Position numbers and translations under genes: made by a program. Below are positions 3 to 48,948 of a stretch of DNA of 64,000 nt, piece after piece. The DNA is from Ischnura elegans (Eukaryota; Arthropoda; Insecta; Odonata; Coenagrionidae): positions 132,246,198-132,310,197 of the forward strand of contig NC_060246.1 of assembly GCF_921293095.1 (NCBI RefSeq). Reading direction: 5' to 3'. The notes beneath the pieces were generated by a model, which had not been told where the DNA came from, ran no database searches, and saw nothing but the letters and a program-made list of their open reading frames with translations. The stretch's first letter is position 1. Each line of letters begins with the position of its first letter.

Positions 3-164
3 CGATGAAAGTTGATGAATTGAGGAGACCCTTGTCGTACGAAGTCATCCGAAGGTCACATTCCGCCGAGGGTAGAAGGTAGCTTATGCAAAATGTCTGG
101 AAAGCACAAGCAATGTAATATACACCGATGGCAGTCATAACACCAATCTGGAATTTTCCTTGAC
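3..164 (-). CDS. copy A exon 3 (TM1 and LPSAECD motif)
   Basis: 162 nt, the same size as exon 3 in B and C. It starts after ctccag and ends at TTC ATC G, with the donor GT at window bases 2-1. It encodes QGKFQIG, a TM1 rich in Tyr and Cys (GVYYIACAFQTF), then LPSAECDLRMTSYDKG. TM1 is much changed relative to B and C. Confidence 0.88.
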
Positions 165-2994
165 CTGGAGAAAATAAATTCTTTCATTAGAAGCCATTTT
201 GGGCTTAAAATTAGATATCTGTACAGAGTAATTTATGCTCTACAGTTATTTTAAATCTATTTTCACATAAAAGTAAAAATGGAGACAATATTTTAAGAAA
301 AAATACTTCTTACGCCTTTAACTGTCTTCCAAGAGTTTGATTGTTAATAAATACCCTCATAATGGCGGAAAATAGTTTTTTGTATCCCTAGAAATGACAC
401 TCATCACCTAATTATTCTATAGTCACCTTGTCTTTCTGGTTTCTAACACATTTACCCATTTATTTATGTGCATTTCTTCAGTGAATTTCCAAGATTTCCA
501 TGAAAATGGCCCATTTTCGATGGCAGATTTCCTAGCCCCGATAGCTATTTATTTATCCATGGACCTTATCATAAAAATAACCTTTATAAGTATCCGGAGT
601 GGTAAAACTTGTGGTCGGATGCCGTGGAGGTATTTCTACGCATTCTCGCGATCTAATTAGCAACTATTCTTTTACCTCGGTGGATAGTAATAAATATTTT
701 GCCTGTTCCCGTTTTCACGGAGCTGATTGCAAAACGTAGTGAATTGTGAAGCAGTTAGTTGTCAAAAAAGCAATTTCCATTGATTGATTCATAGTCCTTC
801 TGAAAATTTTCCTGCACTTTCCATAGTGGGTTTTCATCATTTTCAGCTAAATCGGTACACGTTATTGATTTTAATTTATCAGGATCAAATACTTAAATGC
901 CCTAATGAGATAAAAATTAATTGATTGCTTGGTGAATTTTTAACTTAGCACGTAAAACTCGACGCGGTGATCGTGTATGTGGCCTACCATTTTCTCGCTT
1001 TGGGGGAAAGAAACCGAAACGCCACAACGAAAACAACTTCCTACAAATGTTCTCGATGATCGTTTTTCAGGTGAATATTCCGATAAAGAGGTTCTCCATG
1101 CCTCGTCCCGACACAAGGCACGACGTGTTTTTAGGAGCTTGGCGATTTTCGGTTCACACTTCATTGCTTGCTCGTGAATATTTGGCCAAAGACAATATCG
1201 TAACAATTCCCCAGCCTCCATAATCGCCAGGCATGGCTCCGAGTGACTTTTCGCCGTTTCCAAAAGTAAAGACAACCTTAAAAGGCCGTCGTTTTACAAG
1301 CAAAGATGGCATTAAAAGGAATCGCTGATAGGGCTACAGGTTATCCCAAAGATCGAGTTTTGAGAAGTGTTTCCAGGATTGGAAGAAGCGCTAGCAGAAT
1401 TGTATAATATCTAATGAGGGTTATTTTGAAGGCGATAACATTAATGTAGATAGTAAATAAACATATTTTCAAGTGCTAAAATTCCCGTTATTTTCTGAAC
1501 ACACCTCGTACACTAGGGGTACACGCCAATCGCGCGGCACACAGGAGCGCGCTCTATAGTTTCGCTGCATTCGCGCGGCTTGCGCCGGCTAATCTGGGGG
1601 TGTGCCATTTTCCGGGCGATCCCGTCCAAGTCGCGCACCGATCAGCTGACTGGCCTTGGCACGGCACCCGCTTTCGCTGCATCACCATTGACAATCTTAC
1701 GAGAGATACGTCGACCTTTCGGTCTGGCTGGCAGAGTTAGTATTATAGATGGACCGTAGGGATTGTTGTGCTTGAAATCACTTTCACCATTGCGTGACAG
1801 GATTCAGTGTGTGTCTTCATAATCAAGAGTCTTCGCATATCTTGATCATCGCGTAAATATATGAAAACTGTTCGGATAAACTTGCCATGAAATAATTACA
1901 CGGCCTGATCGGAATTCTAATACGGATATTCCTAAGGCCGGGGAGGTATGATTTGCAAGTACCAGTTTCACCATCGGATCATCATTTTCAGTTTGGCGAT
2001 GACTCCGTAATTACGAGAATACATGACAGGATATCAGGGGACCACACATCGAATCTCGGACAAGGGAATTGATTCTTTCACATCCATTTTCTTATTTTGG
2101 TGCTACATCATTAAGTAGGAATTTTCGTAGTTTCTGGCATAATTTATAAGAAATAAAATAATAAGAAACAAATGATAAGAAATGAAATAATAACGTAATA
2201 ATAAAATAATATAGATCCGTGGATTTGAGCATGTGACGAACGATTTCAGTGTAACAAACGTATTCTTAATAAGCTGTTTAATTTAAGTATTTTCCAATGT
2301 GTTCCTTTATATTTACGATGAACACACTATCGTATAGAGTAATACCCTGGCAATCAACATACTATTCATTAATCATTACCTTAATTATTTCAGAAGTTTT
2401 TTTATTCGCTGCATCAGTGATCTCATACATCACAGGTATTAAATCCACAATGCCCTTTTGAATGATAGATATTTCAAATGTGAGATAGGTTTTTTATAAG
2501 CTATTAATAACCCTTGATATATTTACACTAACCTGCCGTTTGAATGGCGGTCTCGTAATCCACTGCAGTCGCTGAAAATAGAAATGAAAGATTTAAGTTT
2601 ATCCTCCATATCGTCAAAATAGTTAGGGCAAGCAAATGCCACCGCCAACATTTTTGAGCGATAAATTTTTCTTTGCAGAAGTGTTGAAATCGCGTGTATT
2701 ATAAAGATTTTTCGTTCCAGCGGATCCATATGGTTGTAATAAATCAATCAATCAAAAAATAAGTTGGGCACGAAAAACTAAGCTAACAAGCAGCTTTCTC
2801 CGATCGATCGTCTTCCTTCTTCTTTTCTTCATTTGGAGGGCACACCACCGAATTCAAATTCGTGTTGGGCGCCATTGAAAACTTCTCCCTTTGTTCACGA
2901 GTGTCGTGAGCGTATAGGTACCGAAAAACTATGTCTCTTGATATCACCTACCTGATATAGAATTCCCATGTTCCAGGAGAGCTTTTGACTTCAT
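3..2994 (-). CDS. SV2-like MFS transporter, copy A (5' part, exons 1-3)
   Basis: Partial gene running off the left edge. Coding exons on the minus strand are 2952-2994, 2533-2571 and 3-164; all borders are GT-AG, and the donor of exon 3 is bases 1-2 of the window. The start ATG at 2994 opens MKSKALLEHG, matching the first exon of copy B (MKTKTLLEHG). Exon 2 encodes VDYETAIQ; exon 3 encodes TM1 followed by LPSAECDLRM, an SV2-family signature. 81 residues are visible; the remainder (TM2 to TM12) should lie just left of the window. Exon 3 is identical to copy B at 32 of 54 residues, and most changes fall in TM1, where the acidic residue found in B and C (E) is Q. Copy A is therefore the divergent member. 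Intron 2 carries a mariner remnant. The family is a 12-TM major facilitator; the substrate is unknown. Confidence 0.85.
940..1510 (+). mobile_element. mariner transposase 3' remnant (in intron 2 of copy A)
   Basis: From about 1,150 on the plus strand, one frame reads HTSLLAREYLAKDNIVTIPQ, then MAPSDFSPFPK and LKGRRF, the last catalytic-Asp block of mariner transposases (usually SPDLAPxDFFLFPKLK). A further block near 1,400-1,440 reads CIISNEGYFEGDNI, the usual mariner C-terminus. Internal stops (a TAA in place of the codon before SPG, and a TGA) show it is dead. The right end, TGAACACACCTCGTA, looks like a mariner terminal repeat. No left terminal repeat was found; bases 940-1,150 are included tentatively. 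Confidence 0.72.
2533..2571 (-). CDS. copy A exon 2 (DYETAI mini-exon)
   Basis: 39 nt with an acceptor after a pyrimidine tract (ttttcag) and donor gttagt. It encodes TAVDYETAIQTA and aligns residue for residue with the mini-exons of copies B and C. Confidence 0.82.
2952..2994 (-). CDS. copy A exon 1 (start codon, cytosolic N-terminus)
   Basis: 43 nt: 14 codons from ATG plus one base, then donor gtaggt. It encodes MKSKALLEHGNSIS. Length, phase and the KxLLEHG core match exon 1 of copy B. Confidence 0.8.
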
Positions 2995-5519: not shown

Positions 5520-5582
5520 ATTGTCGTGATTTTGGGGTAGCAAGGGAAGTCACCTGCACCGTCCGACGTACGCACTGCTTCA

Positions 5583-10190: not shown

Positions 10191-10199
10191 GTAATAAAA

Positions 10200-12006: not shown

Positions 12007-12009
12007 AGT

Positions 12010-13150: not shown

Positions 13151-13152
13151 AT

Positions 13153-14382: not shown

Positions 14383-14438
14383 TCAAGACATCGTTGCATT
14401 CTTGTTGTTGGGCAGGAAAAAGACAAGAATGGCGCATC
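14383..14438 (-). CDS. copy B exon 11 (C-terminus)
   Basis: 56 nt after acceptor tccatag. It completes the split Gly codon and encodes CAILVFFLPNNKNATMS then TGA. Copy C exon 11 aligns (FFLPNNKIAAMS). The exon lies 9.7 kb from exon 10; the matching phase and sequence make the link firm. Confidence 0.85.
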
Positions 14439-29400: not shown

Positions 29401-32400
29401 CGATTTACCTATGGAAAAACAGTATGAAATAGATACCCTTGGATTGCATTGGTAAATATTTTACATTAATGGGGTTTTTAATAAGACTTCAGGCCTATTT
29501 TTAATACGACTGCATTACTTTCAATTTCATTTGGGTAAATATTACTTCAAACCATTCAGTGAAATGTGAAAGCATTATGGTTTAAGGATAGTTTAAAATA
29601 TCCATTGGAATTTTTAGTAACGATTAACATGTTATTACTTATACCTTGCTTGTTTCACTGATACTTTCCTTGGCCTGGTAGTAAATTATGACAGAGATTG
29701 TGGCATCGTGGGTTTGCAATATGGGTCATTATTGTTAGATGAAACTTTTTATAAAGATTTATTTCTAAGGGATGGAGCATGAGTTCTCTTAAAATACCTT
29801 CCATCATTTCGTACACTCACCGGGTATGAATCTGGAGATTTTCCAGTGTTCGTGCTGTATATACTCTTAAAAACTTCTAAGGCCTCGTCATGTTTTCCTT
29901 TGGACATGAGGTATGCCGGGGATTCCGGAGAGAAATAAGTGGCAATGGCACATATCATGGAAGGCAGTGCCGAGAACGCGATGAACATTCTCCAGGAGTT
30001 GTAACGAAATCCGATCTCGGTGGATCCGAGGAACCAGGGTCGAGGGATGATGGCCCAGGCCACCACTGCAAATAATAAATGCACCATTTCCATTTAACCC
30101 CTTCCTCTTTCTAAGGCCACGCCTAAGTCTTACGGCTACCTAAAGCTTTCAACATCCCAGGACATTAATTGATGAATTACTTGGCCCTGTGCATAGTGTA
30201 TCAGCGTAACTTGGACAAATTTTGCACTACGTCAGTGTTGAAACCAAGAGTAAGGTGTCCACAAGTTGGTGTGGCGTAACTCAGCTTGGCGTATAATTCA
30301 ATTGAGTGCGTTTGGAATACAATCCGGGATTTTTTCAATTAAATATTTCACTGATCGGTACAATTGTGCAAGGTATGTATGTATCACCGTGCATTCCCGT
30401 GGATCTTTGTACTCACCAGGGACACATATGCTTCCAAAGGATGCAAAAATCTCCAACCAGACGACCGCCCTGCTTCGATACATTGAGGAGTGGAATTCCG
30501 CCAGGTAAGGGAAGCCGACTGGCTGGGCCGCTATTATTCTGTCACCGAACATGATGGTCCAATAAAAGATGTCAAATGCTTCGTGAGGAAACGAGAAAAG
30601 AGTTATTTTAATGTGCCTAAAGTTGTACCTTTGCGAAATTGAAATCTTGATGACATAAGTGGTCAGTACTACTAGAAAGGTCATTTAAGTACATGTTACC
30701 ACCGATAAAGTACTGCAACTATTTCACACAATGGCGACTCTAATGAAGATGCTGGAGGGGGAGTTTCGGAGGAACGGGGAAAGTTAACTCCTTAGATTGT
30801 CTTATTCTAAGGAAGGAAATCCAAATTAAATTTACATTACAGGATGAGATAGAGGATAGATCAGTAATCACTTCAGTGACTGACATACAGCGTATTTTCT
30901 CATGTATAGATCAGGTTTTACTGCGATTTGTATATCAAACTGCGATTAGTTCACCACGCTAAAATTATACTCAGTTATAGTGCTAAAATTAACTAAAAAA
31001 AACTTATGCCTAACACCAAAATCAAACTTATTGAAGTTATTTTTCAAAATTCGAAAAATCGCAAAAAAAATTCATCGCGTCTGAAGTCCGCTATACAAGG
31101 CGAATGATCATGCGAATCATTCGCCGTGCATAATGTAAAAAAAAGCGAATGAACCGTCATGCGCATGACCATGCAATGAAAATTGGAACATGCTCTATTT
31201 TTGCTCGCATGATCCCGTGAATGATGGCATGGTCATACGCATGCACATTCACCGTGTATAGCGGCCTTAATCAAACAAAGCTTCAGACTAAGGTCGTAGA
31301 TTCAACATCTGGGCATAATCATACGTTTTTGGAAATGGCATTCCATACCGAACCTAGAACTACCATCGAAATCATGTTGCATTGCATGGTGTTCTGTAAA
31401 TTGACGTGAAAGTGAGGACAAATGTATAATTATACAGACAAACCGAATGCAATAGCGCTTTTTTTCCATCAATGAGAAAATGCGCTAAAAAGGCAACTTT
31501 TATCTCATAACGCTGTAATTTTTTATCTCGAACTGGTTACGACATAGAATTAGATAATATTCAGGCACATCTTTTTCCGTACCGCGGTTTCGCATGAAGC
31601 TATCTGGTATGTAATGACGTCACAGCACTCGAATCCCGACGCCAGGTTTTTTCGAGAGATTCTGCTTCCGCCTGTACTGTCGGCTTCAATGTCTCAGCCA
31701 GTTATTATAAATGCAGTTGATTTACGTGGAAAATAAACATTTTAGGATCCCGCTAAACGATGGCTTTCAATTTTCAGGAAATAATGTAAAATGACCCGTT
31801 TGACGATTGCCCATTACACTCGGCCATTTCGATGGATACCTATTTGGAATAAAGTCGAGGAGAAATTTTTGCTATTTTCCATTGATTGAGGGGCAACATT
31901 AAAGGTTCTTTCTTTATTCATACTTTGGCATTTAAGCATATTGTTTGAAGCGAATATTGCAAAATACCTCTGATATTAATGATCTCAGATCACTTGGTTT
32001 CAACGGTATGTGGTAGCAATTGCTGCCATTATGATCCATACTATTTTTAGAGCAGTTCGAATGCATCCTCTGATGCAAAGATTTATTTCAGTTTTGGAAG
32101 CCATTGTTTGAAGTTGAGGGTCGTTTAAAAATTGTCATTATTGTTCTGCAATTTTCCCTTGCTCGTATGATATTTTTTCTGTGAAAAAATATTTGTGGCT
32201 GCAATAGATACTTACGTCAATCCGGTGATAAATCGGAAGAAAATAAATGGCCAGAATGTTTGCATTAAGCTTGAAAGAATAGCAGCAACTGCATCTGTAG
32301 TGATGGCAAACAAGATGGCCGACCTGCGACCCCATGAATCAGCCATTTTCCCCCAGATGCAGGCTCCAAAGAGAGTACCTGGCATGACAGATGCAATAAA

Positions 32401-34042
32401 TAAGAAGTATGATAGGCCTGAAAACTGCATTAGAAAATTTCCTTGCGAAACCGAAAAGTAAAAAAATATTACTTGATAAAAATAATGAAAATAGTGTTTG
32501 TACCAGCTCATGTCTTGCACTAAGTATATAGGAACTTAAAATCTCTCATTAGCATATCTGATGTGTATATATTTCATTATTAATGGTGTTCAACCGATTC
32601 AAATAGGGTGATTAAATAATTTATTCGTCCTTTCTCAATAGGTTGACCGGATTGTAAATAATTAATATTGAAATAAATGCATGTTTAGATGGAATCATTT
32701 TTATTTTATTCTTTAGAGCAATAACAATGAAATTTAATCTTGATTGCGTTGCTTACGTTATAACGAAACCTCTGTTCCGAGGAGAAGAAGTCTTCCAAAT
32801 GTAAATGACAAACAAATCCTGAAGGTTTAAGGAACTTAAGCCTGACATTTTGTATTGTAAGCATGTAATAAGCAATTGTAAACATGGCGTAAGAATATTC
32901 TATTCTATGCTTGAATACAGGATCGCTTTACCAATTATGTGCTTGGTCCTACTTGATACTAGACAATATAAATGTTCTGCATCAATTTACTATGGCCATC
33001 ACAAGATAGTGTTAGTAATAATTTTCAGCGATACCCACCAATGAAAGGCGCTGAATTAAGGATAGTCTTATCGTAAGAACTCATCCGGAGATCGCATTCT
33101 GCAGATGGAAGCAAATAGGTGATGCTGAATGCTTCAAAAACGGTTGCTATGTCGATCAGGCCAACCAGGAGCAGCATTTGAAGTTGGAATCTACCTTGAC
33201 CTGGAAGAGAGAAATATATTAAAGCTATTATTACTAAACTGCTCGCCACAAAAATTGGTTCAGAAAAACCGTATCTACACAGCTTATGGTGCTTGGAGTG
33301 CAGCATTTACCTCATCTTTGTACCAAGTGCATTGGAAACCGGTCACTTTGGTGAGAGGTGTTTTAAAAAAATATTAATGACACATGTAAATTTAGCTAAA
33401 ATATTTCAAAATAATAACTATTTATTCATTTACCATTATTGCGTAGATTTTACCCAATTCCTGACGATGCGAGTAATGAGCGATATATGGAAAGGGAGGG
33501 GAAATTTTTAAAATAAATTCCAAGTTCTTGGATGAGAAATTTTTGTTCGGGCAATACTCTTTTAGTTCCATGTCTACGAACTTCAGTCTCTATAATGAAA
33601 ATATTTTGCTGTCATGTAGGTAACTAAATGAATTGCTCTTTTTCTCACTTACCTGCAATGTTGATAGCTGTCTCATAATCGGCCATATTATCTATAAAAA
33701 ATATTTTTTATAGAGCGTTAGATGAAATACTCATAAAGAATGTGTATAGTATTATGGAGTAAAGTAAACTTCTTTCATTATAAAAACAGTTTTTAAATTC
33801 CTTTCATAAATAAATGAATTATTGAGAAGCAATAATTATATGTTTTATAATAACTGTTAAATACAGCTATACCGGGAATCACATTTCGATTACGCTGTTT
33901 CGCCATTGTCACTAATTTCTGTTTCCATTAGGAAGAATGAGGGAAACGATTACATATGTTTTTTTGTTTCTAGTTCCAAATCTTGTGAATTTTAATCACC
34001 TGATTCAAAGCTCCCGTGTTCCAGAAGAGTTTTTGTCTTCAT
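14383..34042 (-). CDS. SV2-like MFS transporter, copy B (complete, 11 coding exons, 525 aa)
   Basis: Exons from 5' to 3' on the minus strand: 34000-34042, 33653-33691, 33039-33200, 32216-32378, 30417-30538, 29821-30065, 29239-29408, 27799-28088, 24962-25121, 24168-24295, 14383-14438. The joined length is 1,578 nt with one open frame and all introns GT-AG. It is a twelve-TM major facilitator of the SV2 type: TM1 then LPSAECDLRM; GKMADSWGRR (residues 91-100) between TM2 and TM3; VAWAIIPRPW; PESPAYL (from residue 223) and GKHDEA after TM6; a central cytosolic acidic loop; a luminal loop of about 60 residues between TM7 and TM8 with sequons at N339 and N366 and cysteines 345 and 371; ERIGRKR after TM8. 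The vertebrate SV2 luminal domain is about twice as long, so this is the short insect-type form. Intron 10 is 9.7 kb and repeat-filled. An AATAAA signal lies about 220 nt after the stop. Likely a vesicle or plasma-membrane transporter; the substrate cannot be inferred. Confidence 0.92.
14560..14815. repeat. C/G-rich interspersed repeat, copy 2
   Basis: Homologous to 8,220-8,460 (shared GGAATATGCT, GAAAAGTTTTGAAAA-like, ACATGC, TTTTAAATCATTTTGGCAC). It ends at CCCCATAGTTACGCCACTG. Lies in intron 10 of copy B. Confidence 0.6.
14985..16303. mobile_element. 1.32-kb non-autonomous TIR transposon inserted into a repeat
   Basis: The left end CACAGTGGGGCCAAACCCC is mirrored by the right end (GGGGTTTGGCCCCACTGTG at 16,285-16,303). 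The inverted ends match over about 40 bp through GGACAAAAGTC with a few differences. The tip is itself palindromic: GTGGGG-CCAAA-CCCCAC. The flanks are the two halves of a third copy of the 5.6-6.2 kb repeat, so the borders are independently supported. Neighbouring bases GTTG / CGTCG may be a decayed short target duplication. The interior is AT-rich with no transposase. Superfamily not assigned. Confidence 0.8.
16735..16822. repeat. 90-bp repeat, second copy of 13,430-13,522
   Basis: Same orientation as the first copy. It starts after TTCACATTAACT and includes AATATTTCAGAAACACTCTT and AGGGTTT. Lies in intron 10 of copy B, while the first copy lies outside the gene. Confidence 0.65.
17255..17433. 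repeat. near-perfect foldback palindrome (~88-bp arms)
   Basis: The left arm AATGAAAGAAACTTCGTTTC... to the centre near 17,342 is mirrored almost base for base by the right arm ending GAAATTTCTTTCATT. There is almost no loop. Few mismatches imply recent insertion or gene conversion. Lies in intron 10 of copy B. Confidence 0.85.
17498..17620. repeat. dispersed repeat R1, copy 1, left half
   Basis: TGGTTTCCTAT...TTTTTATTG, CTGGAGTA, TTTCTCGCTTTTAGATTTTT and GGCGATATCTAT align with 47,692-47,800. In that copy the sequence continues straight into the part that here lies at 18,958-19,510, so about 1.34 kb has been inserted. Confidence 0.68.
17871..17921. repeat. short perfect hairpin
   Basis: CATCGTAGAAAGACGATGA and its exact inverse (TCATCGTCTTTCTACGATG) are separated by about ten bases rich in GACGAC. 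Inside the sequence inserted into R1. Confidence 0.8.
18958..19510. repeat. dispersed repeat R1, copy 1, right part
   Basis: About 540 bp aligning in the same direction with 47,810-48,365: TAGCGCTTGGCTTAAATAAG, ACCTTATCAAACGA, CTATCTACTCGTA, CCAATCTGGCCTTTTTCAAA and GGGTAACGAATCGCAATCA are shared. No transposase or RT is visible; possibly an LTR or a long non-autonomous element. Confidence 0.75.
19515..21450. other. copy B intron 10, no gene seen
   Basis: Contains one G-run repeat (20,255-20,525) and GTGGACGACAGTTTCGCC near 20,635, whose inverse occurs near 14,880. No coding region. Confidence 0.45.
20255..20525. repeat. G-run interspersed repeat
   Basis: AGGGACGCCAACTTACAAAA to TGGAGTCGGCGCCACTGAG, with G-run and C-run blocks around an AT centre. 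Ends are loosely inverted (GGGACGCCAAC / GTCGGCGCC). Resembles the other C/G-rich repeats of this window. Confidence 0.45.
21453..21579. repeat. foldback palindrome (TTGTATAAA type)
   Basis: Arms of about 58 bp: CGCCCCAATGAAAAAATTG at left and CAATTTTTTCATAGGGGCG at right, each with GTATAAACCTGTTTCAAAAT inside. The centre ACCATGGC has almost no loop. Lies in intron 10 of copy B. Confidence 0.85.
22240..22770. repeat. GC-rich island repeat, related to 37,715-37,905
   Basis: The part from about 22,545 (GTCCGCTTAGGGGC, an A-run, CATAACCGGACAG, GATCTCC, AAGCCTTCC, GTGGAACAC, ACGTTCA, CAACC) recurs in the same order at 37,715-37,905. The left half is GC-rich with short open frames on both strands but no recognised protein. 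Confidence 0.6.
22771..24167. other. copy B intron 10, right part, featureless
   Basis: AT-rich; repeated GGAATTC/AATTCC motifs at 23,040-23,200 (CAGAATTCC, GGAATTCCTT) form a loose internal repeat. No gene. Confidence 0.45.
24168..24295 (-). CDS. copy B exon 10 (TM11 and TM12 start)
   Basis: 128 nt after acceptor gtacag, donor gtgaga. It encodes GLASTIIMSISNIGSVVG and LLLDVDCAYPVFI. The AYPVFI segment begins the last helix. Same size and phase in copy C. Confidence 0.93.
24962..25121 (-). CDS. copy B exon 9 (TM9-TM10)
   Basis: 160 nt, acceptor tttacag, donor gtaatt. It encodes MAMALTASCGAGSYF and YATLMSVIIELYPASLR; the ELYP-x-x-x-R end is the conserved MFS loop after TM10. Same size as copy C exon 9. 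Confidence 0.93.
25277..25985 (-). mobile_element. jockey/CR1-like LINE 3' fragment
   Basis: An open minus-strand frame (25,551-25,976) reads VKYLRVTITSKLSW, LVRPHLEYSASVCNP and MQRKAAPFV, the end of a non-LTR reverse transcriptase. On its 3' side is an untranslated part ending in repeated TGTAGA units near 25,277. The 5' end is truncated, as usual for LINEs. Lies in intron 8 of copy B, same strand as the gene. Confidence 0.88.
26285..26440. repeat. cluster of short hairpins
   Basis: AGCAAATTTTCTAGTTGT...ACAACGAGAAAACTTGCT and TCATCGAAGGATATCTCCTTCGATGA-type inverted repeats sit side by side with ATCGAAGAAT tandem copies. No gene; possibly a decayed foldback element or an integration hot spot for the LINE that follows. 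Confidence 0.55.
26495..27215 (+). mobile_element. LINE (RTE-like) RT C-terminal fragment, frameshifted
   Basis: About 26,495-26,705 reads EINKKKTKILV and NEFSYLGSRITSDG; after a frame change near 26,703 it continues AKRAFYKKKNL, then MFLYGSEAWTL, MWCYRRMMKI, RRRDNLVGHILRH and KGKGRPR to 27,191. This is the standard C-terminal region of an endonuclease/reverse-transcriptase LINE. A (GAT)n-like tail follows the stop (TAATGATGATGATGA). Antisense to copy B, in its intron 8. Confidence 0.88.
27799..28088 (-). CDS. copy B exon 8 (TM7 end, luminal loop, TM8)
   Basis: 290 nt, acceptor attcgcag, donor gtaagc. Encodes YFGFGMWFPELFNRFEEF, then a luminal loop with sequons NLT and NAT and two Cys (VCEV, DCSE), TM8, and ERIGRKRVI. 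A glycosylated TM7-TM8 loop is the SV2 hallmark that separates it from SVOP-type relatives. Confidence 0.95.
28985..29069 (-). other. orphan exon-like open segment in copy B intron 7
   Basis: Between acceptor-like ttcacag and donor-like gtacgt lie 85 nt reading DEIVDIIKNMGIEPKDEEG and KSTLMAAA without a stop. The phase (0 in, 1 out) does not fit between exons 7 and 8, and no counterpart was seen in copy C. It could be a relic exon of another gene or paralogue, or chance. Confidence 0.3.
29239..29408 (-). CDS. copy B exon 7 (central cytosolic loop, TM7 start)
   Basis: 170 nt, acceptor ccatag, donor gtaagt. Encodes VNRLEMNISLEEK, an acidic stretch (NEDEDN), then LFRPPLLKNTIIGLTSLFSL. The acidic cytosolic part is the most variable between copies (copy C has one more codon). 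Confidence 0.94.
29821..30065 (-). CDS. copy B exon 6 (TM5 end, TM6, PESP motif)
   Basis: 245 nt, acceptor tttgcag, donor gtgagt. Encodes VVAWAIIPRPWFLG, NSWRMF, and PESPAYLMSKGKHDEAL. The WAIIP and PESP...GKHDEA motifs are shared with animal SV2 proteins. Confidence 0.95.
30417..30538 (-). CDS. copy B exon 5 (TM4-TM5)
   Basis: 122 nt. The acceptor ggtgacag was chosen because it restores phase with exon 4 and gives the same 122-nt size in copy C, whose intron differs just upstream by a net 5 bp. Encodes IIAAQPVGFPYLAEFH and YRSRAVVWLEIF; AEF...RSRA is the usual TM4-TM5 loop. Donor gtgagt. Confidence 0.9.
31084..31268. repeat. MITE with CCGCTATACA inverted ends
   Basis: AAGTCCGCTATACAAGGCGA at left is the inverse of TCACCGTGTATAGCGGCCTT at right with a few changes. 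The interior is built of GCATGA/TCATGC-rich motifs. Lies in intron 4 of copy B. Confidence 0.75.
32216..32378 (-). CDS. copy B exon 4 (TM2 end, MFS loop motif, TM3)
   Basis: 163 nt, acceptor atgccag, donor gtaagt. Encodes TLFGACIWGKMADSWGRRSA, containing the major-facilitator G-x-x-x-D-x-x-G-R-R loop, then TM3 and FFRFITGL at the start of TM4. Upstream the same frame stays open for some 40 codons, but copy C fixes the acceptor here. Confidence 0.94.
33039..33200 (-). CDS. copy B exon 3 (TM1, LPSAECD motif)
   Basis: 162 nt, acceptor cttccag, donor gtgggt. Encodes QGRFQLQMLLLVGL, an acidic E in TM1 at the place of a conserved SV2 glutamate, and LPSAECDLRMSSYDKTIL. 48 of 54 residues match copy C. 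Confidence 0.94.
33653..33691 (-). CDS. copy B exon 2 (DYETAI mini-exon)
   Basis: 39 nt, acceptor ttatag, donor gtaagt. Encodes NMADYETAINIA. It contains an ATG, so it could also start a shorter protein, but exon 1 upstream matches in phase. Confidence 0.88.
34000..34042 (-). CDS. copy B exon 1 (start codon)
   Basis: 43 nt from ATG to donor gtgatt. Encodes MKTKTLLEHGSFES. Start chosen by equal length and similarity in all three copies (KTLLEHG / KALLEHG / NTLLGRG). Confidence 0.83.
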
Positions 34043-34090
34043 CGTACCAAAACTACAAATTAGACTTGAATCTTCACACCTAGACCCCTC

Positions 34091-34233
34091 ACCCAGTGTA
34101 CGATTGTTTTATGTCTTTACACCTATTATCTCATCGAGAAATACGGCCACTGACGAAATTGTTTGAAGTTCCTTAGTTTGCTGGAAGTTAAACCCAGTGC
34201 TGCATGCAGTGTGTCATTGACATATGGGTCTGC
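34091..34233 (-). promoter_or_regulatory. 5' flank of copy B, conserved with copy C
   Basis: Just upstream of the copy B start, about 140 bp align with 49,004-49,147 upstream of copy C: on the plus strand ACCCAGTGTACGATTGT / ACCGAGTGTATGATTGT, CTATTATCTCAT, GACGAAATTGTTTG / ACGAAATCGTTTG, CTCCTTAG and TGTCATTGA-TATGG blocks. Likely 5' UTR and promoter carried along in the duplication. No certain TATA box. Confidence 0.55.
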
Positions 34234-34639: not shown

Positions 34640-35445
34640 TTCCAATTATTATTATTATTATATAGTACAAGTTACAAGTTGGCTATTTGCCAGGTGGTAA
34701 CAGGTTATACAAAATAAAAAGAAAAACAAAAATATAGCAAATGAGAAATACATTACCAAAATGAAACTAGAAAGTATTAAAATTCAGTGATATTAATTTT
34801 CCAATATTAATCCTCTACACCTCTTTTTGAAAATCCTTACGTTGTTAGGGTAGGGCTTAAACAGTTCTGCAGGGAGTCTATTCCATTCCGTAATCGTCCT
34901 GTTAAGGTACGAGAATTTCTTTACGTTAGTCCTTTGCGGCCGGCATTTCATCTTGAATTGGTGATCATGCCTACCAATATAGCTGGGGTATTCAATCTTC
35001 CTCCGAAGTTCCCCCCATGCCTTTTCCCCTTTCAGTGTGCGGAAGAGTGCGCGAAGCCTATTTATTTTTCTTCTCCGTTCTAGTGTATCCCATCCCAGGC
35101 CTTTCAGCATTTTACCGACACTTTCGGTCTTTTTGTGTTTCCCCATGACGTACCTTGCTGCCTTTCTTTGCACCTTCTCTATGGATTCTGTTTGTCCCTT
35201 TTCATACGGGTCCCACACTAGTGACGCGTACTCTAAAATCGGCCGGATTAATGTCTTATACGCCTTCTCCTTTGTAGTTCGATCACTTTCCTTAAGATTC
35301 CTCATCACCCAATGTAACATTTTGAACGCCTTTTTTGTTAATTGTTCGACATTTGCCTCCCACCCTAAATCTTTCATTAAATACACCCCTAAGTATTTAC
35401 ATCGGTCACAATTAAACCAAAATTCCAAGTGATTTCCCACTTACG
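34640..35445 (-). mobile_element. CR1/jockey-like LINE 3' fragment with ATT-repeat tail
   Basis: The minus-strand frame 34,793-35,440 (215 codons) reads CKYLGVYLMKDLGWE, LIRPILEYASLVWDP, VQRKAARYVMG and WNRLPAELF, the RT C-terminal region of non-LTR retroelements. 3' of the stop is an untranslated part ending in (AAT)n (plus-strand ATTATTATT at 34,648-34,662). It is longer and less damaged than the other LINE pieces, 5' truncated. Lies between copies B and C. Confidence 0.9.
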
Positions 35446-36683: not shown

Positions 36684-36739
36684 TCAAGACATCGCTGCGA
36701 TCTTGTTGTTGGGCAGGAAGAAGCAAAGAAGAGCGCATC
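36684..36739 (-). CDS. copy C exon 11 (C-terminus)
   Basis: 56 nt after acceptor ttctag. Encodes CALLCFFLPNNKIAAMS then TGA. Same size as copy B exon 11. Confidence 0.9.
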
Positions 36740-39700
36740 CTAGAAAATAAAGAAGAGGTAATTTTTGGTAAACAGAATACATCAATTACTAATGATAAAA
36801 AAATGAGAGATACTGTAGCAAGCTCGCGAAAATCACAATGAAAATGCACTTGAGTCTTGTACGATAGTTATTTTCTGTCATTATGCTAAGCTGCTAATGT
36901 TGCACTTCCTCCTGATTTTTACTACTTAAAACGAATTTAATTACAAAAATTTTTATAGCATAACATCAATTTGTTTCTTTTTATCTATGCTGTCAAATTC
37001 ATCAAATGTTTGCAGCGTTTGCCCCTTCCCATCAAATATTGAAGTCATCTCGTACTTAGGCATGCTTTTTAGGAGATTCATCGAACAGTTAATCTCCGGA
37101 AACAGTTTTCTTCTAGCCACATTTCATCATGAAGTGTATACATTTTTGCACCTTACGTGTCACATCAAAAAAAGTCACAGATAAAAGGGTATTAATTGAA
37201 ATATCAGATGGAAGCTACACATTGCTGGAATGGTGTAGTAAAAATTCCTCTCCTTCATTTGTGCTTTTTTTGGTTTTGTTAAGCGGTGAGTGGATCGGGA
37301 TCCTGATATACTCCTGAGGCTGGGACGACGAAAGAGCGGAGAGTCCGTTGAATTATTAGGCACAGTCGGTACAGACAACAGTCAGAGCAACGTTTTGTAC
37401 CGAGTGCATGCCCACCAAGTCCTTCCTATACACCCACATTCCGGCTTCGCTGTCGCCAGTAAGGTCGATCGGATTTGTTCCCTCAATTTTATTCGAGCCA
37501 CCATGCTTCCGCGGCAATCATCTAGAGGCTGTGGACGTTGGAAGGTAGGAATGGGCAACGATTTCGGAAGAATTCCTCATTGGTTATAAATGTAGTTTTA
37601 AAATAGTTTTCGGCCAACTTTTCTCGATTTTAGCCCACTGACAACCAGCGTCACCCGATTCTAATCTCAAAGTAAATCACAGATCATGCTCAATAGCGGG
37701 TATTTGAGGAATGCGTGAACGGTCCGTCCTCTACGGGCCAAAAAAATAACACGACCAAAACCGGACTGCCTTCTGCTTATATAATCTCCACTAAGCCTCC
37801 CTCCCTTAGCACCCGAAAATAAAATTCGGTGGAGGCGGTGTGGAACACTTTCCGTTCAAAGCCTCCAATTGTGAATGTAAGAAGATGGTTCGTCGAGTCT
37901 CGGAGTTTATTCATGTGAGACAGTATTTTTTTACGTTTGGTCTAGCATTGTTTCGCGGATATATTTTAAGCTCATTTTTTTCCTTATTAAAAAATAAAAT
38001 TATATTGCACCTAATGATTCGAAATGCGTCCACTACCGCACTACTAAGATGAAAACGAATTTTCTCGGCTCAACAATAATTTGTTTTCGGGAAAATTTAG
38101 TTAGGAGATGTTTGAAATATTACTTACGTAGCCAACAAAAAATTCACTAACTTTTTTCATTATTAGCTTTGTGGTATTCCATTATAAGGTTTCTTGGATA
38201 TTTCACTATACTTATACCACTACTTTTTTACATAACGTGGCCCGAGTTTCGATGAGTTACCATCATCTTCAGGCGTAAATTACGATCTATTTACGCCTGA
38301 AGATAACTCATCGAAATCCGGGTCGCGTTATGTAAAAAAGTAGTGGTATAAGTGTAGTGAAATATCCTAGAAAAGCCAACAAAAACTATTTTACTTCTTG
38401 GAAACTGCACATTATTTTTATTACATATACCAAATATTTTGCTCAAATATTTTATGACTGAGCCTGAAATTTCACGACATTTCCCTGATTTGAATACCTC
38501 TCTCACTCTAAAGTTCAATTAGAAGATATCTTATTATTCCGTGTATGCAGCAAAGATTTTATTTAACATTGTTCAGTTTATAAATGGTTAATGCTGGCCT
38601 TTTTATGTATTAGTAGAGGACAAAATAGTAAATATACAAACACCTTACCTCCCATGACTCCAGCAGAAATGAAGACCGGGTATGCACAGTCGACGTCGAG
38701 CAGCAAGCCAAAAAGTAGGTTCCCCACTATAGAACCAATGTTGCTGATGCTGAGTATCAGTGTTGAGGCGAGACCTCTGCGTCAAGAAAAGAAACAAGTT
38801 CATTAAATACCGATAAATTTTCAATTATGTGGACACAGCAGTACCGAGAACGACGCAAAGGTGTATCTTAGCACGACATGACAACAATTCTGTGTATACG
38901 GATTAAATGTAGAATTTTTCTACTTATTATAATCACGTATTATTCACGAATCTCACCACTTATAAATTCGTAAAAAAATGAATCATTTGCTATCGAAGCA
39001 ATCCTGTTTGCGGACCGTTGAATCCATTAACATTTCCGAAAAATTCTATTTATCCACGCCTTACCTAAACTCTTTTGAATTGTTATTTTCTAATGGAATC
39101 TGTGATATTGTGCTTTGCAATGGTATAAACGGCGTGGGATGATTATATGCTGATAATCGATTTTAATAATACTTATATTAAAAATTGGGAGGAAAAATGG
39201 TTGTTTAGTGAGCTTTAGATCTTTTATACATATATGTGTACCATTAGAAGGGCTTGGAGGATTACAAAATAGTATGATTACTAATGATTCGAGTTTTTCT
39301 TAGAATCATGGAGCGCGATTCTAATTATTATTTCTTTTGCGTAAATTTTGGGCAGTTGCTTCATCTAGTTCAGTTAGTTCATCTAAGGCAATTGGTAAAT
39401 CTTTGAAATTTTCCAAAAACATTATGTTATCTAACCTAAATGTTAGGAAATTTTTAAAAGTAAATACGTAATGTTTTGAATACTAACTGTGAATTAGAAT
39501 TTAAAGTAAATTTTAAAAATAAATTATGATATTACTAGCATATACTTTCTCCTGTAATAATTACCTTAACGAAGCGGGATAAAAATCAACGATGACGGAC
39601 ATGAGAGTGGCATAGGAGGCTGCATTGAAAGCCTGCAGGAAGCAGGATAGTGCTAAATTTTGAGCCGCTGATTTTGTGAAAAAGCTCCCTGCGCCACAGA

Positions 39701-42700
39701 GAGCAGTGAGTAGCATCGCCATAACTGTGAAATAAGATAATATTTAACCTATGAGTATAAATGAATACTAAGTAACAATAAAAAAAACTTGTTAATTGAC
39801 TCCATTCAGTTGGGAAAAACAAGTTGTAATGTTGTTCAACTGAGGATGATTTCTTACTGATAACTCTTTTGCGCCCAATTCTCTCCACGAATGTGCCCGT
39901 GATGAAGGTAACGATCATGCACGTGATTCCAATGGAAAGGGTCTTGACGAACACTTGCGGTTGAATCGTATCCTCCGAGCAGTCAATGGTGGCGTTGGTG
40001 CCACTCTCCCAGTCGACCATCCACTGTGGTTTCTCGTCCATCATGTTGGAAACCTCGCACACGGAAGCCGTCAAATTCGGATACTTCTCCTGAAACTCCT
40101 CGAAACGGTTGAACAGCTCAGGAAACCACATACCGAACCCAAAAAACCTGCGAATAAGACGAGTATTCAACAAGTAGCTACACTGTTAAGTTCCTATTTG
40201 GAATATCGGTGCGATATTTTATTACCATTATTTTATCGGGGTCTAATTAAAAAAAGAAATTATATGACGGAAGAAATGTTTCCCAATGAATCGCGAAACA
40301 GCCCAGTGAGATCACAAATTGATAAATTTTAATATCTGCATCTCGTTAGCTCATCGAACGAATTCCTTCGCGGTCATAAATTTTCCATCAATGTCTTGAC
40401 TAGACTGAAGCGATCGAGCCGTGAAGGAGTGAATAAACAAGTCATAGACTGATTAAAATAAACATTTCATTGGATTTGTGTAAACACAGGAGAATGACTG
40501 ATTATTAAATAACACTGGCCTAGCTTGATAAGGTTAACTTTGCCCTTAACTTAGCTTATATATTAATGTGATAGCTGTTCAGTGGATGGAGGTTACATTT
40601 TGAAAAGGAAGGAAAAAAGGTAATTTAAGGTGTGCTTCATGAAATATGTCCTCCTAAAGAAATTCCAGACCAGTGACCAGATGAATATGAACGTAAACCT
40701 GAGCGCGCGTTGCATATGTTTTAATAGCTTCTAATCTAGAGATGTCTAAAATGGATTTTGATAAAATATCTACGTTAAAACTAATTCCTTTATAATATTA
40801 TGGATATCTAGGTACTAATGAAACACTCCCATGCTAAGTCTTTGATTTTTTGAAGGTTTTTCTATGTTCGCAACTTAATACATCATTATGCTTAGAAAAA
40901 ACTATTTTATCAAATTGTTAATAAGAGGAATATGATGAGATTGAATGATTAAAATACTCTAAAGAGTAGTTTAAAAATGGATAATAACTCTGCCTTCTAT
41001 ATATTGATGTTCTGATATAATTTTATTTAGCCTAAGTTGACGAGTAATATTTCCTAGCTTGCTTTTACAACTATAATTCTGTTTTGCTGGACTTACCCGA
41101 GTTGAAGTGAAAATAAACTAGTCAGGCCAATGATTGTATTCTTCAGAAGAGGAGGCCGGAATAAATGGCTTATTTGCTTTATCATCAATATGACACTCGA
41201 TCTCGTAGAGGCTTTTTCCTCCTTTTCATCTTTCTCCTCTAGCGTGAAGTTCATTTCCAACCGATTGACCTACGGGAAAATGGCATTGTTGAGAGACATT
41301 ACTAATAACCATATATTTTTTATGTTTTATTTATAGTCCTTTCTCTGCTCCCTTTCAAAAGTTGCTAGCTTATTTGCGTTTCTTTCGTATTTGACCTCAC
41401 GAGACTAGATAGCATTGTACTCCTGACATTAAACATGTATCAAATGAGTTCATGAATATTTTAATTATCCGATGATATCCGTGTGACTGACTCCACCTCT
41501 AGCTTTTCTAGTGGGAGCGCTCTTAGTTTGTAAGTGTGTGAAAATTTCAAATGCTAATTAATTGTTGTCTTTTCAGTTTTTAAAGCATAGATTCAACTTG
41601 ATGCGACGTTTTGAAGCAAAAGTTGATGTTTAGATTATATGGTTTAGTTTTACTGAGAATGATAAATGCCAATAAGCGTTGAAAATAGGTTCTTTGAATA
41701 ACCACCATGACTCACCGGATATGAATCAGGAGAATTTCCAGTGTTCCTGCTGTATATACTCCTGAAAACCGCCAAGGCTTCATCGTGTTTTCCTTTGGAC
41801 ATGAGGTAAGCAGGAGATTCCGGGGAAAAATAGGTGGCAATCGCACATATCAAGGCAGGTATTGCCGCGGCCGCCATGAACATTCTCCAGGAGTTGTAGC
41901 GAAAGCCGATCTCGGCGGATCCGAGGAGCCAAGGACGAGGGATGATCGCCCAAGCCACCACTGCAAATCATACATGCATCAGCGTTACCATTTAGTCCCA
42001 CAGGCTGTCTGTTTCCCTGCGACATATCATGGCATTGAGCAACATAATACTTCATTTTATTACTATCATGCAGTTATTTTATATGAACCTCTGAATCATA
42101 TGCAGCAAATTTGCTGTGTAGCGTGGGAAAGGACTAAACTTATTATATAATTAGAATAAAATTAATGTATTTTTGCATTATTATTTATTAGGCACTCTAT
42201 ATTTATATTAGCCACTGCATGGCTGGGTAGATAACTGCAGAGGACTTCAAATATTCAAAAGATTCAATTAACGATAGTCATGAATTTTAGTGAAAGCTCG
42301 CTGATTTTGTTTGTAGGAGGACATAATATCAATATGTGTATTTAAAGCACTTTAAATAGTCTTTAGATAGAAAAATATTTCTTGTTTGCATTCCATTTTA
42401 TGCCTGCATTCATTTAATTTTCATATTTCATTGCCAACAAGAAATGAAATTTCGTTGATGTAATGGCACCCATGGGCGTACCCAGGATCATAACTAGGGG
42501 AGGGGTCAAGCCAAGTTGTGACATTAGTTTATGAGATCATATCCTTGAAAAAATAATTGTATTTTAGTTACATATCTTATACTAATACCATAAAGTATAT
42601 AATATAATATACTTACAGAATAATAGAATATACTTACTCTATGCTAATACATATCATTTTTCGTGGGTGTAAAGAAAATTTGTTGAATACTCAATTCAGT

Positions 42701-45700
42701 GCTGATTTTTCTCAAAGACTTTAGCAATTTTTGCCTCCAGGGGGGGCAGCTGCCCCCCCCCCCCTACCCCTCGCTGGGTACGCCCATGATGACACCGTTA
42801 CCTCGTCTGGTTGATTGAGTTGCACTTCGCATCGGGGTATTAATTAAAATTGGTCCCTTGAATGAGCATCGTGAAACTGGTCTATTTGAAGAAAAATCCT
42901 GAAAATTTTTATGCTTCCCAGTGGCTTGGAAAAAAGTTTTTAACGAAATCACTTCAGGGTTTTCTTGTTCTGCGGTTGGGTTAGGAATGGCGATGGCTTA
43001 TTATACTTTGTTACTCATGAGTTAATTAATTGATAATCATTTCATTTTCACCAAACGTGGTTGCGTATAATGTCAGAACCCTGTTTGTAGCGAACGGGCA
43101 ACCATTTTCACATCTTTACCCATTATAATTATTACTCATGCCTTTACCTTTTTTGGCTGCATTCACTTTTTCCCCCTTATTGAAATTTCTTTTCTGTGAT
43201 GAATTTGGACTTAATATCAACGAACGAAATCATGTTTCCTCTATCATGCAAAATATTGCATCACATATTGCATCATATTGCTTTTGAGCAAATTTAGCGC
43301 TTTCTAATTGACTAAAAGTAGTGTTTTCAATGTTCTAGTTTAAGAGTAGTGAACAATTACATTGCTTTTGTATTTTTAGTCCATGCCATTCAGTTGCAAA
43401 TGCTTGTGTTTCCTAGCCTGTTTAAGGGATAAAAAATAAAGTCACCTACCGCACTTATTCATGCCAGTCCTGAACTGCTGAACTTTTCACAGGGGCTCGA
43501 ATCATCTCATTGTGACTAGAGAGTGGTACAATTAGTGCGAAGTAGCTTCAGACTTTCATCTATCTATCTCAGGGACAACTCTCAGACTAATTAAAGAAAA
43601 TCTAAGTTAACTCTAATGAAGGTTTGTACTCACAAGGGACTAATATGCCCCCGAGGGCTGCAAATATCTCCAGCCAAAGGACTGCTCTACTTCGATAGAT
43701 CGGCGAGTGGAATTCCGTCAGGTACGGGAAACAGAGTGGATGCGCTGCCATGATTCTGTCCGCCAAACATCCGATAAAAGACGTCAAATGCTTAATGAGA
43801 AGACAAGAAACGAATTAATTGGATGTGGTTAACATGGTTTCCAGTAAAATTAACTATTGGGATTCTCTTGAAAGAAATACATTTTTTTATGAATTATGTT
43901 GAACTAGCAAGAGACAAATGAGGATGGAAACTACAAATGGAACCTGCTTCTTTGCATAAAACCATATACGGCATCCTCCGGGATAGCCTGGACTTATTCA
44001 TCACATGTTCAAGTTTTTCTTTGCTTGGAAGGTACTATATTTGGATTTAGTTTCATTAGTGTACAGTGTGATTCTGAAAGTGGAAATTTTATGATTTTAC
44101 ATTTTATGATTTACATATTGGTTACTATAAGCATGGTTTCATATGGCTATATGCCAGCGTGAGGAAGGTAGCACTAGAAAATAAACCTCCATCTAACTCT
44201 CCAAGTTATTGAAATTTAATTTATTTTTCACACATATTATATTAATTATGATTATGTTGGCATGCTTACGTCAATCCAGTGATAAATCGGAAGAAAACAA
44301 ATGGCCAGAAAGTTTGCATCAGACTTGAAAGAATGGCCGCTATTACATCGACTGAGTTAGCAATAAGAATGGCCGATCTACGGCCCCACGAATCAGCCAT
44401 TTTTCCCCAGAAACACGCTCCAAGAAGAGTACCTAGAATGAAGGATTCGATGAATTTAATGCATGGTAATAAATTATTTCACATATTTCCATGAAACCAC
44501 GGCAATTCTCTCAACCATACTAGACATCATTTGGGATTAGACCGCGTTGATTTCATTTCCTGAAAACAACCAAGAACGCAACCTCTTATTGTTACGAGCA
44601 TTGATTAATAAATATGCATTGAAAGAGCAGTTAAAATTTGCAGACTATAGGCTTGAAATAAATTAAGATAAATGAACAGAAGTTCCAAGTTAGATATTTT
44701 ATAGAAATTTCACTTACTAAGATAATGAACTCGAAATATTTCTTCTTAAGTGCTAAGCCATTAAAATAAAACTAGCCTGGAATGATTCAAGCTGTTATCT
44801 ACTTTCACCCGCGTCTCTTTTTTCTAACTTGGAGTAATAGACTAATATTCCAGCTTTATTGTTCATATTATGTAATGTATTTAAGTTATCTCAGAAAAAG
44901 CGTCTCACGATAAGAACCGTAATGAGTTTGTGTATCTTCAGAGAGTATTTATAAATATTTGGAGCCATTTTAACGGCTGTGAAATCAGCATTAATTCAAT
45001 AATATAATCCATGTTTTTATAGGATCTAGAGGACGGAATGTGGTCGTAAGAAGAAAAGTTCCTTCTTACGACGAGTAATTTGAATTATCTTCCTCATTTT
45101 GCGTATTTATAAATTTTCACAATTTCTTTATGGTTAATTTCATTTGTAAACTTCTCCTTCTCAGAAAAAATACAGCGAATCGCCCGAATTTAAAGTTCAA
45201 ATCGCTAGTTTTCAAGTTCTCTCATAAATTATTCTAATGTGATAAATCTGAATGATTTTTAACTTTCTAATGAACTAGAAGTATTCCTTACCTATGCAGA
45301 GTTATCTCCACCTAGGTTAGAACAATTAAGCCGCAATCGAGTGACACAAAGGTTTCTCAGCCAGCTTACATGAAGGGTTGATATTCAAACATAAATATTT
45401 AATTCGTGCTTGAACACGGAAATTCTTCTTGATTCAATTCCCTCCATGATCATGCACTTCAGGCATATCGTGCATAAATTATTAGTCGCCAGGTATTCTA
45501 GAAATTTTCATTCTAAATAAGGTACTCACCGATGAAAGGCGCTGCATTGAGAATAGTTTTGCCATACGAACTCATCCGGAGGTCACATTCTGCGGATGGA
45601 AGCAAGTAGGTGATGCTGAATGCTTCAAAAATGGTAGCTATATCAATCAGGCCAGCCAGGAACAGGATTTGAAGTTGGAATCTCCCTTGACCTGAGAGGG

Positions 45701-48700: not shown

Positions 48701-48948
48701 CTGCATTGTTGATGGCTGTTTCATAATCGGCAATGTTCACTAGAAAAAAGTTTGCAACGAATTTTAGTAAAATATCTATCCCAAATGTGTTAATTACTTG
48801 GGAACCGATAATTATCCTTTGGGTGAAAGAAAAGCATCTGATTAATTACTCGCTTATATATTTTCTGTTTTACAGCACTAGCTAAAATGATTTTTTTTAC
48901 ATCACCTGGTTCATGGTTCCCACGCCCAAGAAGTGTATTCGCCGTCAT
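36684..48948 (-). CDS. SV2-like MFS transporter, copy C (complete, 11 coding exons, 526 aa)
   Basis: Exons from 5' to 3' on the minus strand: 48906-48948, 48701-48739, 45530-45691, 44270-44432, 43634-43755, 41716-41960, 41097-41269, 39858-40147, 39565-39724, 38649-38776, 36684-36739. Joined length is 1,581 nt, open throughout, all introns GT-AG with the same phases as copy B; exon 7 is one codon longer. The start ATG at 48948 gives MTANTLLGRG. Motifs: LPSAECDLRM after TM1, GKMADSWGRR, VAWAIIPRPW, PESPAYL with GKHDEA, a TM7-TM8 luminal loop with NLT and NAT sequons, ERIGRKR, and the C-terminus FFLPNNKIAAMS. It lies 2.6 kb upstream of copy B in the same direction, so it is a tandem paralogue with its own 5' flank. 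An AATAAA lies about 265 nt after the stop. Two extra upstream mini-exons could supply another N-terminus. Confidence 0.92.
37715..37905. repeat. repeat shared with 22,545-22,770
   Basis: GTCCGTCCTCTACGGGCC, an A-run, AACCGGACTGCC, ATAATCTCC, AAGCCTCC, GTGGAACAC, TTCCGTTCA and CGTCGAGTCTCGGAGTTT follow the order seen at 22.5-22.76 kb. Same direction. Lies in intron 10 of copy C; unidentified interspersed repeat. Confidence 0.6.
38193..38370. repeat. foldback palindrome (~80-bp arms)
   Basis: CTTGGATATTTCACTATACT at left matches the inverse of the right end (AGTGTAGTGAAATATCCTAG). The arms also share TTTTTTACATAACG and CGATGAGTTA; the centre is TTTACGCCTGAAG and its inverse. Lies in intron 10 of copy C. 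Confidence 0.85.
38649..38776 (-). CDS. copy C exon 10 (TM11 and TM12 start)
   Basis: 128 nt, acceptor gacgcag, donor gtaagg. Encodes GLASTLILSISNIGSIVGN and LLLDVDCAYPVFI. Confidence 0.93.
39565..39724 (-). CDS. copy C exon 9 (TM9-TM10)
   Basis: 160 nt, acceptor ttcacag, donor gtaatt. Encodes MAMLLTALCGAGSFF and ATLMSVIVDFYPASLR. Confidence 0.93.
39858..40147 (-). CDS. copy C exon 8 (TM7 end, luminal loop, TM8)
   Basis: 290 nt, acceptor attcgcag, donor gtaaga. Encodes GFGMWFPELFNRFEEFQEKY, loop sequons NLT and NAT, two Cys, then TGTFVERIGRKRVI. Very close to copy B exon 8. Confidence 0.95.
41097..41269 (-). CDS. copy C exon 7 (central loop, TM7 start)
   Basis: 173 nt, acceptor cccgtag, donor gtaagt. 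Encodes VNRLEMNFTLEEKDEKEEKA then LFRPPLLKNTIIGLT. One codon longer than copy B in the acidic stretch. Confidence 0.94.
41716..41960 (-). CDS. copy C exon 6 (TM5 end, TM6, PESP motif)
   Basis: 245 nt, acceptor atttgcag, donor gtgagt. Encodes VAWAIIPRPWLLGSAEIGF, NSWRMF and PESPAYLMSKGKHDEALAVF. Confidence 0.95.
42471..42788. repeat. MITE-like element with CATGGGCGTACCCAG inverted ends
   Basis: The left end CATGGGCGTACCCAG is the exact inverse of the right end CTGGGTACGCCCATG; 318 bp. The right part has a G-run followed by CAGCTGCC and a C-run. A related, partly truncated copy is at 59,186-59,398. Lies in intron 5 of copy C. Confidence 0.82.
43634..43755 (-). CDS. copy C exon 5 (TM4-TM5)
   Basis: 122 nt, acceptor gcggacag, donor gtgagt. 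Encodes IMAAHPLCFPYLTEFH and YRSRAVLWLEIF. It ends in T, not the G of copy B, turning the split Val codon into Leu. Confidence 0.9.
44270..44432 (-). CDS. copy C exon 4 (TM2 end, MFS loop motif, TM3)
   Basis: 163 nt, acceptor ttctag, donor gtaagc. Encodes TLLGACFWGKMADSWGRRSA then FFRFITGL. Confidence 0.94.
45530..45691 (-). CDS. copy C exon 3 (TM1, LPSAECD motif)
   Basis: 162 nt, acceptor tctcag, donor gtgagt. Encodes QGRFQLQILFLAGL and LPSAECDLRMSSYGKTIL. Confidence 0.94.
47692..48365. repeat. dispersed repeat R1, copy 2 (uninterrupted)
   Basis: Matches 17,498-17,620 plus 18,958-19,510 in order and direction, without the 1.34-kb interruption present there. Its right end has a local GAAGGAAA duplication. 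No protein recognised. Lies in intron 2 of copy C. Confidence 0.75.
48701..48739 (-). CDS. copy C exon 2 (DYETAI mini-exon)
   Basis: 39 nt, acceptor ttctag, donor gtgagt. Encodes NIADYETAINNA. The Met of copy B is Ile here, so translation cannot start in this exon. Confidence 0.88.
48906..48948 (-). CDS. copy C exon 1 (start codon)
   Basis: 43 nt from ATG to donor gtgatg. Encodes MTANTLLGRGNHEP. Aligns in length and phase with exon 1 of A and B. Confidence 0.8.

Follow-up and report, generated by a model that had tools for sequence, protein, structure and literature searches.

Four tandem SV2-like transporter genes, arranged as two pairs, on chromosome 1 of Ischnura elegans

How many SV2-like transporter genes stand side by side on chromosome 1 of Ischnura elegans, how did they arise, and do the copies perform different tasks? 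These questions are raised by a window of 64,000 nucleotides (the whole stretch of DNA that was analysed), in which a preliminary description had recognised two complete 11-exon genes and a third entering from the left, all on one strand. We reconstructed the genes using self-comparison, tblastn with exon peptides and splice-site reading (Table 1). Genes B (34042-14383) and C (48948-36684) are predicted to be complete on the minus strand, with 11 exons each, and encode proteins of 525 aa (B) and 526 aa (C) with no internal stop in either. Gene A is represented in the window by exons 1-3 only (2994-3, minus strand), with sizes and phases as in B and C, whose own phases are identical. The reconstructed exons, the open frames and the end points bear out the arrangement first described, the exon sizes and phases listed for the window were correct for B, C and A exons 1-3, and positions 3 and 48948 proved to be the true edges of the feature.

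Table 1. Predicted exons of genes A, B and C in the window (positions are those of the window)
Exon	Positions	Strand	Size (nt)	Remarks	Evidence
A exon 3	3..164	-	162	ends at window edge	tblastn + splice-site reading
A exon 2	2533..2571	-	39		tblastn + splice-site reading
A exon 1	2952..2994	-	43	start codon	scored scan + splice-site reading
B exon 11	14383..14438	-	56	stop codon	self-comparison, tblastn, splice-site reading
B exon 10	24168..24295	-	128		
B exon 9	24962..25121	-	160		also spliced alignment
B exon 8	27799..28088	-	290	codes TM7-8 luminal loop	also spliced alignment
B exon 7	29239..29408	-	170		also spliced alignment
B exon 6	29821..30065	-	245	WAIIP + PESP...GKHDEA	also spliced alignment
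B exon 5	30417..30538	-	122		also spliced alignment
B exon 4	32216..32378	-	163	MFS loop 2-3 motif GKMADSWGRR	also spliced alignment
B exon 3	33039..33200	-	162	LPSAECD	also spliced alignment
B exon 2	33653..33691	-	39		also spliced alignment
B exon 1	34000..34042	-	43	start codon	scored scan, also spliced alignment
C exon 11	36684..36739	-	56	stop codon	
C exon 10	38649..38776	-	128		
C exon 9	39565..39724	-	160		
C exon 8	39858..40147	-	290		
C exon 7	41097..41269	-	173		
C exon 6	41716..41960	-	245		
C exon 5	43634..43755	-	122		
C exon 4	44270..44432	-	163		
C exon 3	45530..45691	-	162		
C exon 2	48701..48739	-	39		
C exon 1	48906..48948	-	43	start codon	

Two short exons required particular care. 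When 14370-2570 was scanned, the candidate for A exon 1 scored 43 and the runner-up 12. A search of 24160-20000 for exon 11 of B was negative; this exon lies 9.7 kb past exon 10 and was recognised via self-comparison and a weak tblastn match. As a control, the spliced-alignment script was run on 23901-34200 with a profile made from the four array proteins, B included, and returned nine of ten exons of B exactly; exon 10 was overrun, since the sequence supplied did not reach exon 11.

The window (chr1 132,246,198-132,310,197) was then placed in its surroundings within the I. elegans genome (110 contigs, 1,722,721,009 bases), and the B and C exon peptides served as queries against 100 kb on each side of it. 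Looking to the left for A exons 4-11 and for further copies, as the preliminary description had proposed, completed A and revealed another gene. Exons 4-11 of A lie at chr1 132244301-132231812, which brings that gene to 11 exons. Beyond it, at chr1 132210831-132186107, comes another 11-exon gene in the same orientation, D, the fourth of the array; the predicted A and D proteins have 534 aa each. Since A is complete to the left and D lies beyond it, the array consists of four genes rather than the three originally counted: D, A, B and C, all on the minus strand, at chr1 132,295,145-132,186,107. The claim of a local tandem array was thereby borne out by four neighbouring genes on one strand. In the exon-peptide search of the 100 kb flanking the window on each side, no other copy was detected at E 0.02, a cut that also missed the short exons A 1, A 2 and D 2, which were located by other means. 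The frames of all four genes are intact, and GT...AG borders were read at 40 of 40 introns, although this rule had guided the choice of the boundaries. The ten intron phases are the same in every gene. The exon sizes, described as identical across the copies, are indeed common to all four genes at nine of the 11 exons, but exons 7 and 8 vary (191/191/170/173 and 296/296/290/290 nt respectively in D/A/B/C), the differences being multiples of three.

The order of the duplications was read from pairwise comparison, with dN and dS estimated by NG86. D and A show 87.8% amino-acid identity (dN 0.066, dS 0.490, dN/dS 0.135), and B and C 81.5% (dN 0.103, dS 0.646, dN/dS 0.160); identity across the pairs is 61.6-68.4%, with dS saturated at 2.9-3.6. 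In codon bootstraps, the D-A dS was below the B-C dS in 198 of 200 replicates. The array is thus made up of two pairs, (D,A) and (B,C), of which D and A are the closest of the array, B and C being closest only within the window. The earlier view of B and C as the youngest pair holds in that they are sisters, but not in their rank, as D and A are closer (dS 0.49 compared with 0.65). The dN/dS values of 0.135 and 0.160 imply that the copies have been maintained, and all four genes are under purifying selection. No sign of positive selection was seen in a blockwise analysis, dN being below dS in eight of eight blocks in both pairs. Upstream of the start codon, 800 bp are alike within pairs (D-A, 403 bp at 71%; B-C, 138 bp at 70%), and a same-strand comparison between pairs found no match in this stretch at E 0.001. 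This gives indirect support only to the suggestion that the pairs may have diverged in tissue.

An 83% repeat (18959-19506 and 47798-48344) was considered as shared intron DNA and rejected, its two copies lying in B intron 10 and C intron 2; as these introns do not correspond, it was taken for a dispersed repeat, and is probably a mobile element. Intron 8 spans 2.7 kb in B compared with 133 bp in C. Within the B intron, at window positions 25551-27191, open frames on both strands resemble by eye the ends of non-LTR retrotransposon reverse transcriptases, with no Pfam match at E 0.01; such retrotransposon-like frames may explain the length of the B intron relative to that of C. Between B and C, a 215-codon open frame on the minus strand (34793-35440) likewise resembles by eye the end of a retrotransposon reverse transcriptase and had no Pfam match.

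The matching exon plan had been taken as a mark of the tandem copying, a view that the dispersed relatives of these genes contradict. A genome search with protein C gave at least 54 matches at E 1. Besides the array, they fell at chr10:40.80-40.82 Mb, chr3:131.15-131.16 Mb, chr1:39.45-39.46 Mb and chr12:39.28 Mb, with weak matches on chr6, chr2, chr9 and at chr1:86.1 Mb, so that the genome contains at least eight genes of the SV2 group (four in the array and at least four elsewhere). Spliced alignment with the array profile gave, for exons 3-7, sizes of 162, 163, 122, 239 and 170 nt in the chr10 paralogue and of 165, 163, 122, 242 and 170 nt in the chr1:39.45 Mb paralogue. In the chr3 paralogue, the 163, 122, 160 and 128 nt exons recurred exactly, exons 3 and 6 measured 178 and 265 nt, and exon 7 was split. 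For the chr12 gene, the same script and profile returned a different plan (148, 181, 152 and 173 nt); the array profile may favour array boundaries, yet the chr12 gene was not forced into them. Short, doubtful terminal exons that the script added to the paralogues were disregarded. As several array exon sizes recur in the chr10, chr3 and chr1:39.45 Mb paralogues, the exon plan appears older than the array, and the matching sizes look like an old feature of the family and not a sign of the tandem event.

To which family, then, do the four proteins belong? Both B and C matched Pfam MFS_1 well above its cut-off (129.8 and 125.5 bits compared with 33.4); where the hydropathy of the array proteins was read for twelve membrane helices, neighbouring helices merged into single runs. 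Their best NCBIfam match was the SV2 model TIGR01299 (217.2 bits for B and 215.9 bits for C), although its curated cut-off of 637.3 was missed. The model of the SLC22 organic ion transporters, TIGR00898, came second, 31-49 bits lower (186 and 166.8 bits for B and C), and its cut-off of 550.75 was missed as well. For the N-terminal half, the SV2 model scored above the SLC22 model in both D (189 compared with 121) and C (174 compared with 113), and the chr12 gene scored 226 with the SV2 model. Among PDB proteins, C matched SV2B at 3e-58 and SV2A at 3e-48 to 6e-48, followed by sugar transporters at 1e-11 or weaker and SLC22 proteins at 3e-9 or weaker. The PDB-match alignments showed that the motifs LPSAE-x-D, WAIIP and PESP...GKHDEA are common to the array proteins and SV2. 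Identity to SV2A and SV2B is 29-33% in the N-terminal half.

The array proteins depart from SV2 in several respects. Their N-terminus is short, residue 18 of C aligning with residue 150 of SV2A, about 130 residues fewer. The luminal pentapeptide domain between TM7 and TM8 (Pfam LD_SV2) was not detected in B or C at E 0.1, and scans of the D and C loops at E 10 were likewise negative; the A loop has the length and cysteines of the D loop. In all four proteins, the TM7-8 loop measures 58-60 aa, with two sequons for N-glycosylation besides its two cysteines. A tree built on the N-terminal half of 12 sequences (two SLC2 proteins as the root, SVOP and SV2C not among them) supported the array clade at 99 and each of (D,A) and (B,C) at 100. 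Human SV2A and SV2B and the chr12 gene formed a clade (94) that excluded the array, the nodes between having support of 63, 78 and 86, the 63 beside the root. Thus the membership of SV2 that was first claimed stands in so far as the best model and PDB matches and the motifs are concerned, but the array falls outside the SV2A, SV2B and chr12 clade and LD_SV2 was not found in it. On these comparisons, the array proteins are classed as SV2-like, not as SV2 proper.

SVOP and SVOPL (SLC22B4-5) form a related group of MFS proteins that are not known to carry the luminal domain of SV2. No SVOP sequence was among the PDB matches of the array protein, and a search for SVOP with the N-terminal half of the chr12 gene gave at least 31 matches, none of which was recognised as SVOP; they comprised SV2-group loci, sugar-transporter-like loci on chr2 and one chr6 locus that appears SLC22-like by eye. 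Several intron-poor open frames, SLC2-type by eye, lie at chr2 8.225-8.363 Mb and apparently form another local MFS cluster. Three small genomic fragments are also SLC22-like by eye.

A separate locus carries the domain that was not detected in the array. When the genome was searched with LD_SV2 (the best 150 of 533 candidates being scored), one match exceeded the cut-off alone, at chr12:39297690-39297944, and as a peptide it matched LD_SV2 at E 6.6e-10. This exon lies on the same strand as the SV2-like exons of chr12, about 11 kb after the last one found, and a match to the SV2 model, at model positions 510-630, falls at its site too. A weaker match on chr9 was over the cut-off only jointly with its neighbours in the same frame. 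The LD_SV2 control, with matches in six of 14 prokaryote genomes and over the cut-off in one, was unclean because pentapeptide repeats are widespread. The SV2 model itself gave no match over the cut-off in the genome, and in its control had matches in 13 of the 14 genomes, none over the cut-off. Taken together, the domain exon and the SV2-like exons make chr12 39281700-39298100 the probable SV2 orthologue.

The preliminary description had also proposed that the copies diverged towards different substrates. We mapped on our alignment the residues lining the SV2A drug pocket or lying near its ligand, as given in PMC11026379 and PMC12663137. At positions 176, 179 and 182 of TM1 (SV2A numbering), the residues are Tyr, Cys and Gln in D and A, and Asp, Thr and Glu in B and C. 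With their Asp at 176 and Glu at 182, B and C have Ala for the pocket residue Trp300; D and A have no acid at the three TM1 positions and keep the Trp. Position 176 is about one helical turn from Asp179 of SV2A. Of ten SV2-group sequences set side by side, B and C alone show Ala300 and Asp176; at 176, 179 and 182 the chr3 paralogue likewise lacks an acid, and D and A are not special in that respect. Judging by MFS transporters in general, acidic residues in TM1 may bear on proton coupling. By analogy, the pairs might have split the transport site, B and C with TM1 acids at 176 and 182 and Trp300 lost, D and A the reverse; we offer this reading tentatively and consider it, on balance, unlikely.

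As one comparison of 22 literature positions, some of them merely near the ligand, and uncorrected for shared ancestry, the pocket test gave nine of the 22 columns as fixed differences between the pairs (3.4 expected). Such differences take up 66 of the 431 columns of the alignment (P 0.0026), and 51 of 316 when the background is confined to membrane segments (P 0.0035). When any variation was counted instead of fixed differences, the result was 13 of 22 and not significant (P 0.055 and 0.062 respectively). The proposed divergence of substrates is therefore weakly favoured by the fixed differences and loses that support in the broader count, and we see in the pocket no more than an indication that the pairs may handle different solutes. 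According to PMC11026379, SV2A restores galactose growth of yeast, with galactose binding unseen, and what the SV2 core transports is still unsettled (PMC11026379 and PMC12663137). As the substrate of SV2A itself is unsettled, the reasoning from its pocket is by analogy.

We consider it likely that the locus is a tandem array of four intact SV2-like MFS genes, in which an older duplication gave rise to two lineages and each lineage then duplicated once more in place, yielding (D,A) and (B,C). The proteins would be alternating-access solute carriers with the SV2 transporter core and a short loop in place of the pentapeptide domain, and the two lineages might further have separated in substrate and possibly also in proton coupling. 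Our guess is that the solute would be small and organic or sugar-like, and carried at the plasma or vesicle membrane of a non-neuronal epithelium. Adjacent similar copies in one assembly could instead be haplotypic duplication left uncollapsed, or some copies could be decayed pseudogenes. Identities of at most 87.8% and dS of at least 0.49 were judged far beyond allelic divergence, and the four open frames, the 40 GT-AG introns and dN/dS of 0.07-0.16 over the six pairs argue against decay, making such an artefact extremely improbable. It is also very unlikely that these are duplicates of a genuine synaptic-vesicle SV2 that act in neurotransmitter release as in vertebrates. The MFS core, the three shared motifs and the best matches to SV2 models and to solved SV2 proteins do liken them to SV2A, SV2B and SV2C (SLC22B1-3). 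Unlike these, however, the array proteins have neither a detected pentapeptide domain nor the long N-terminus, they score 217 and 216 bits against 637, and at the racetam site all four have Met for Asp670, while Phe (D and A) or Tyr (B and C) stands for Trp666 (Trp300 being W/W/A/A in D/A/B/C). Their position outside the SV2A, SV2B and chr12 clade, together with the separate chr12 locus with LD_SV2, points the same way.

A harder alternative to set aside is that the four copies are redundant, moving one substrate and being kept for dosage or by drift, with neutral differences in the pocket. It accords with dN/dS far below 1 in all pairs and with dN above dS in no block, and the pocket excess comes from a single test and is gone when any variation is counted. 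Against it, the fixed differences between the pairs concentrate at the pocket columns, and the upstream DNA, alike within pairs, finds no match between them. We regard redundancy as quite possible, if less likely than not.

Multiple SV2-like genes are already known in insects, and the array is therefore another such case. The fruit fly has ten SV2A-related proteins according to PMC5627054, and in PMC7251169 a silkworm expression table includes several genes annotated as SV2A, 2B and 2C, the names being those of the annotators; by their description, these multi-gene expansions are like the array. The fly orthologues are given as CG3168 for SV2 and CG4324 for SVOP in PMC7358622. No title on Odonata SV2-like genes was among the matches listed in a literature search for SV2-like expansions in insects and odonates. 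Apart from its pockets, the array has the look of an unremarkable expansion of an insect gene family. That the luminal domain was not found in it cautions against inferring a synaptic role when genes of this kind are annotated 'SV2'. Should the transport site indeed be split, proton coupling may be confined to one pair and the substrates of the two may differ, and the array would be a natural pair of LD4-free carriers for learning what the SV2 core transports. In any case, neighbouring LD4-free copies that are intact and contrast in their pockets, within one genome, are convenient material for asking that question.
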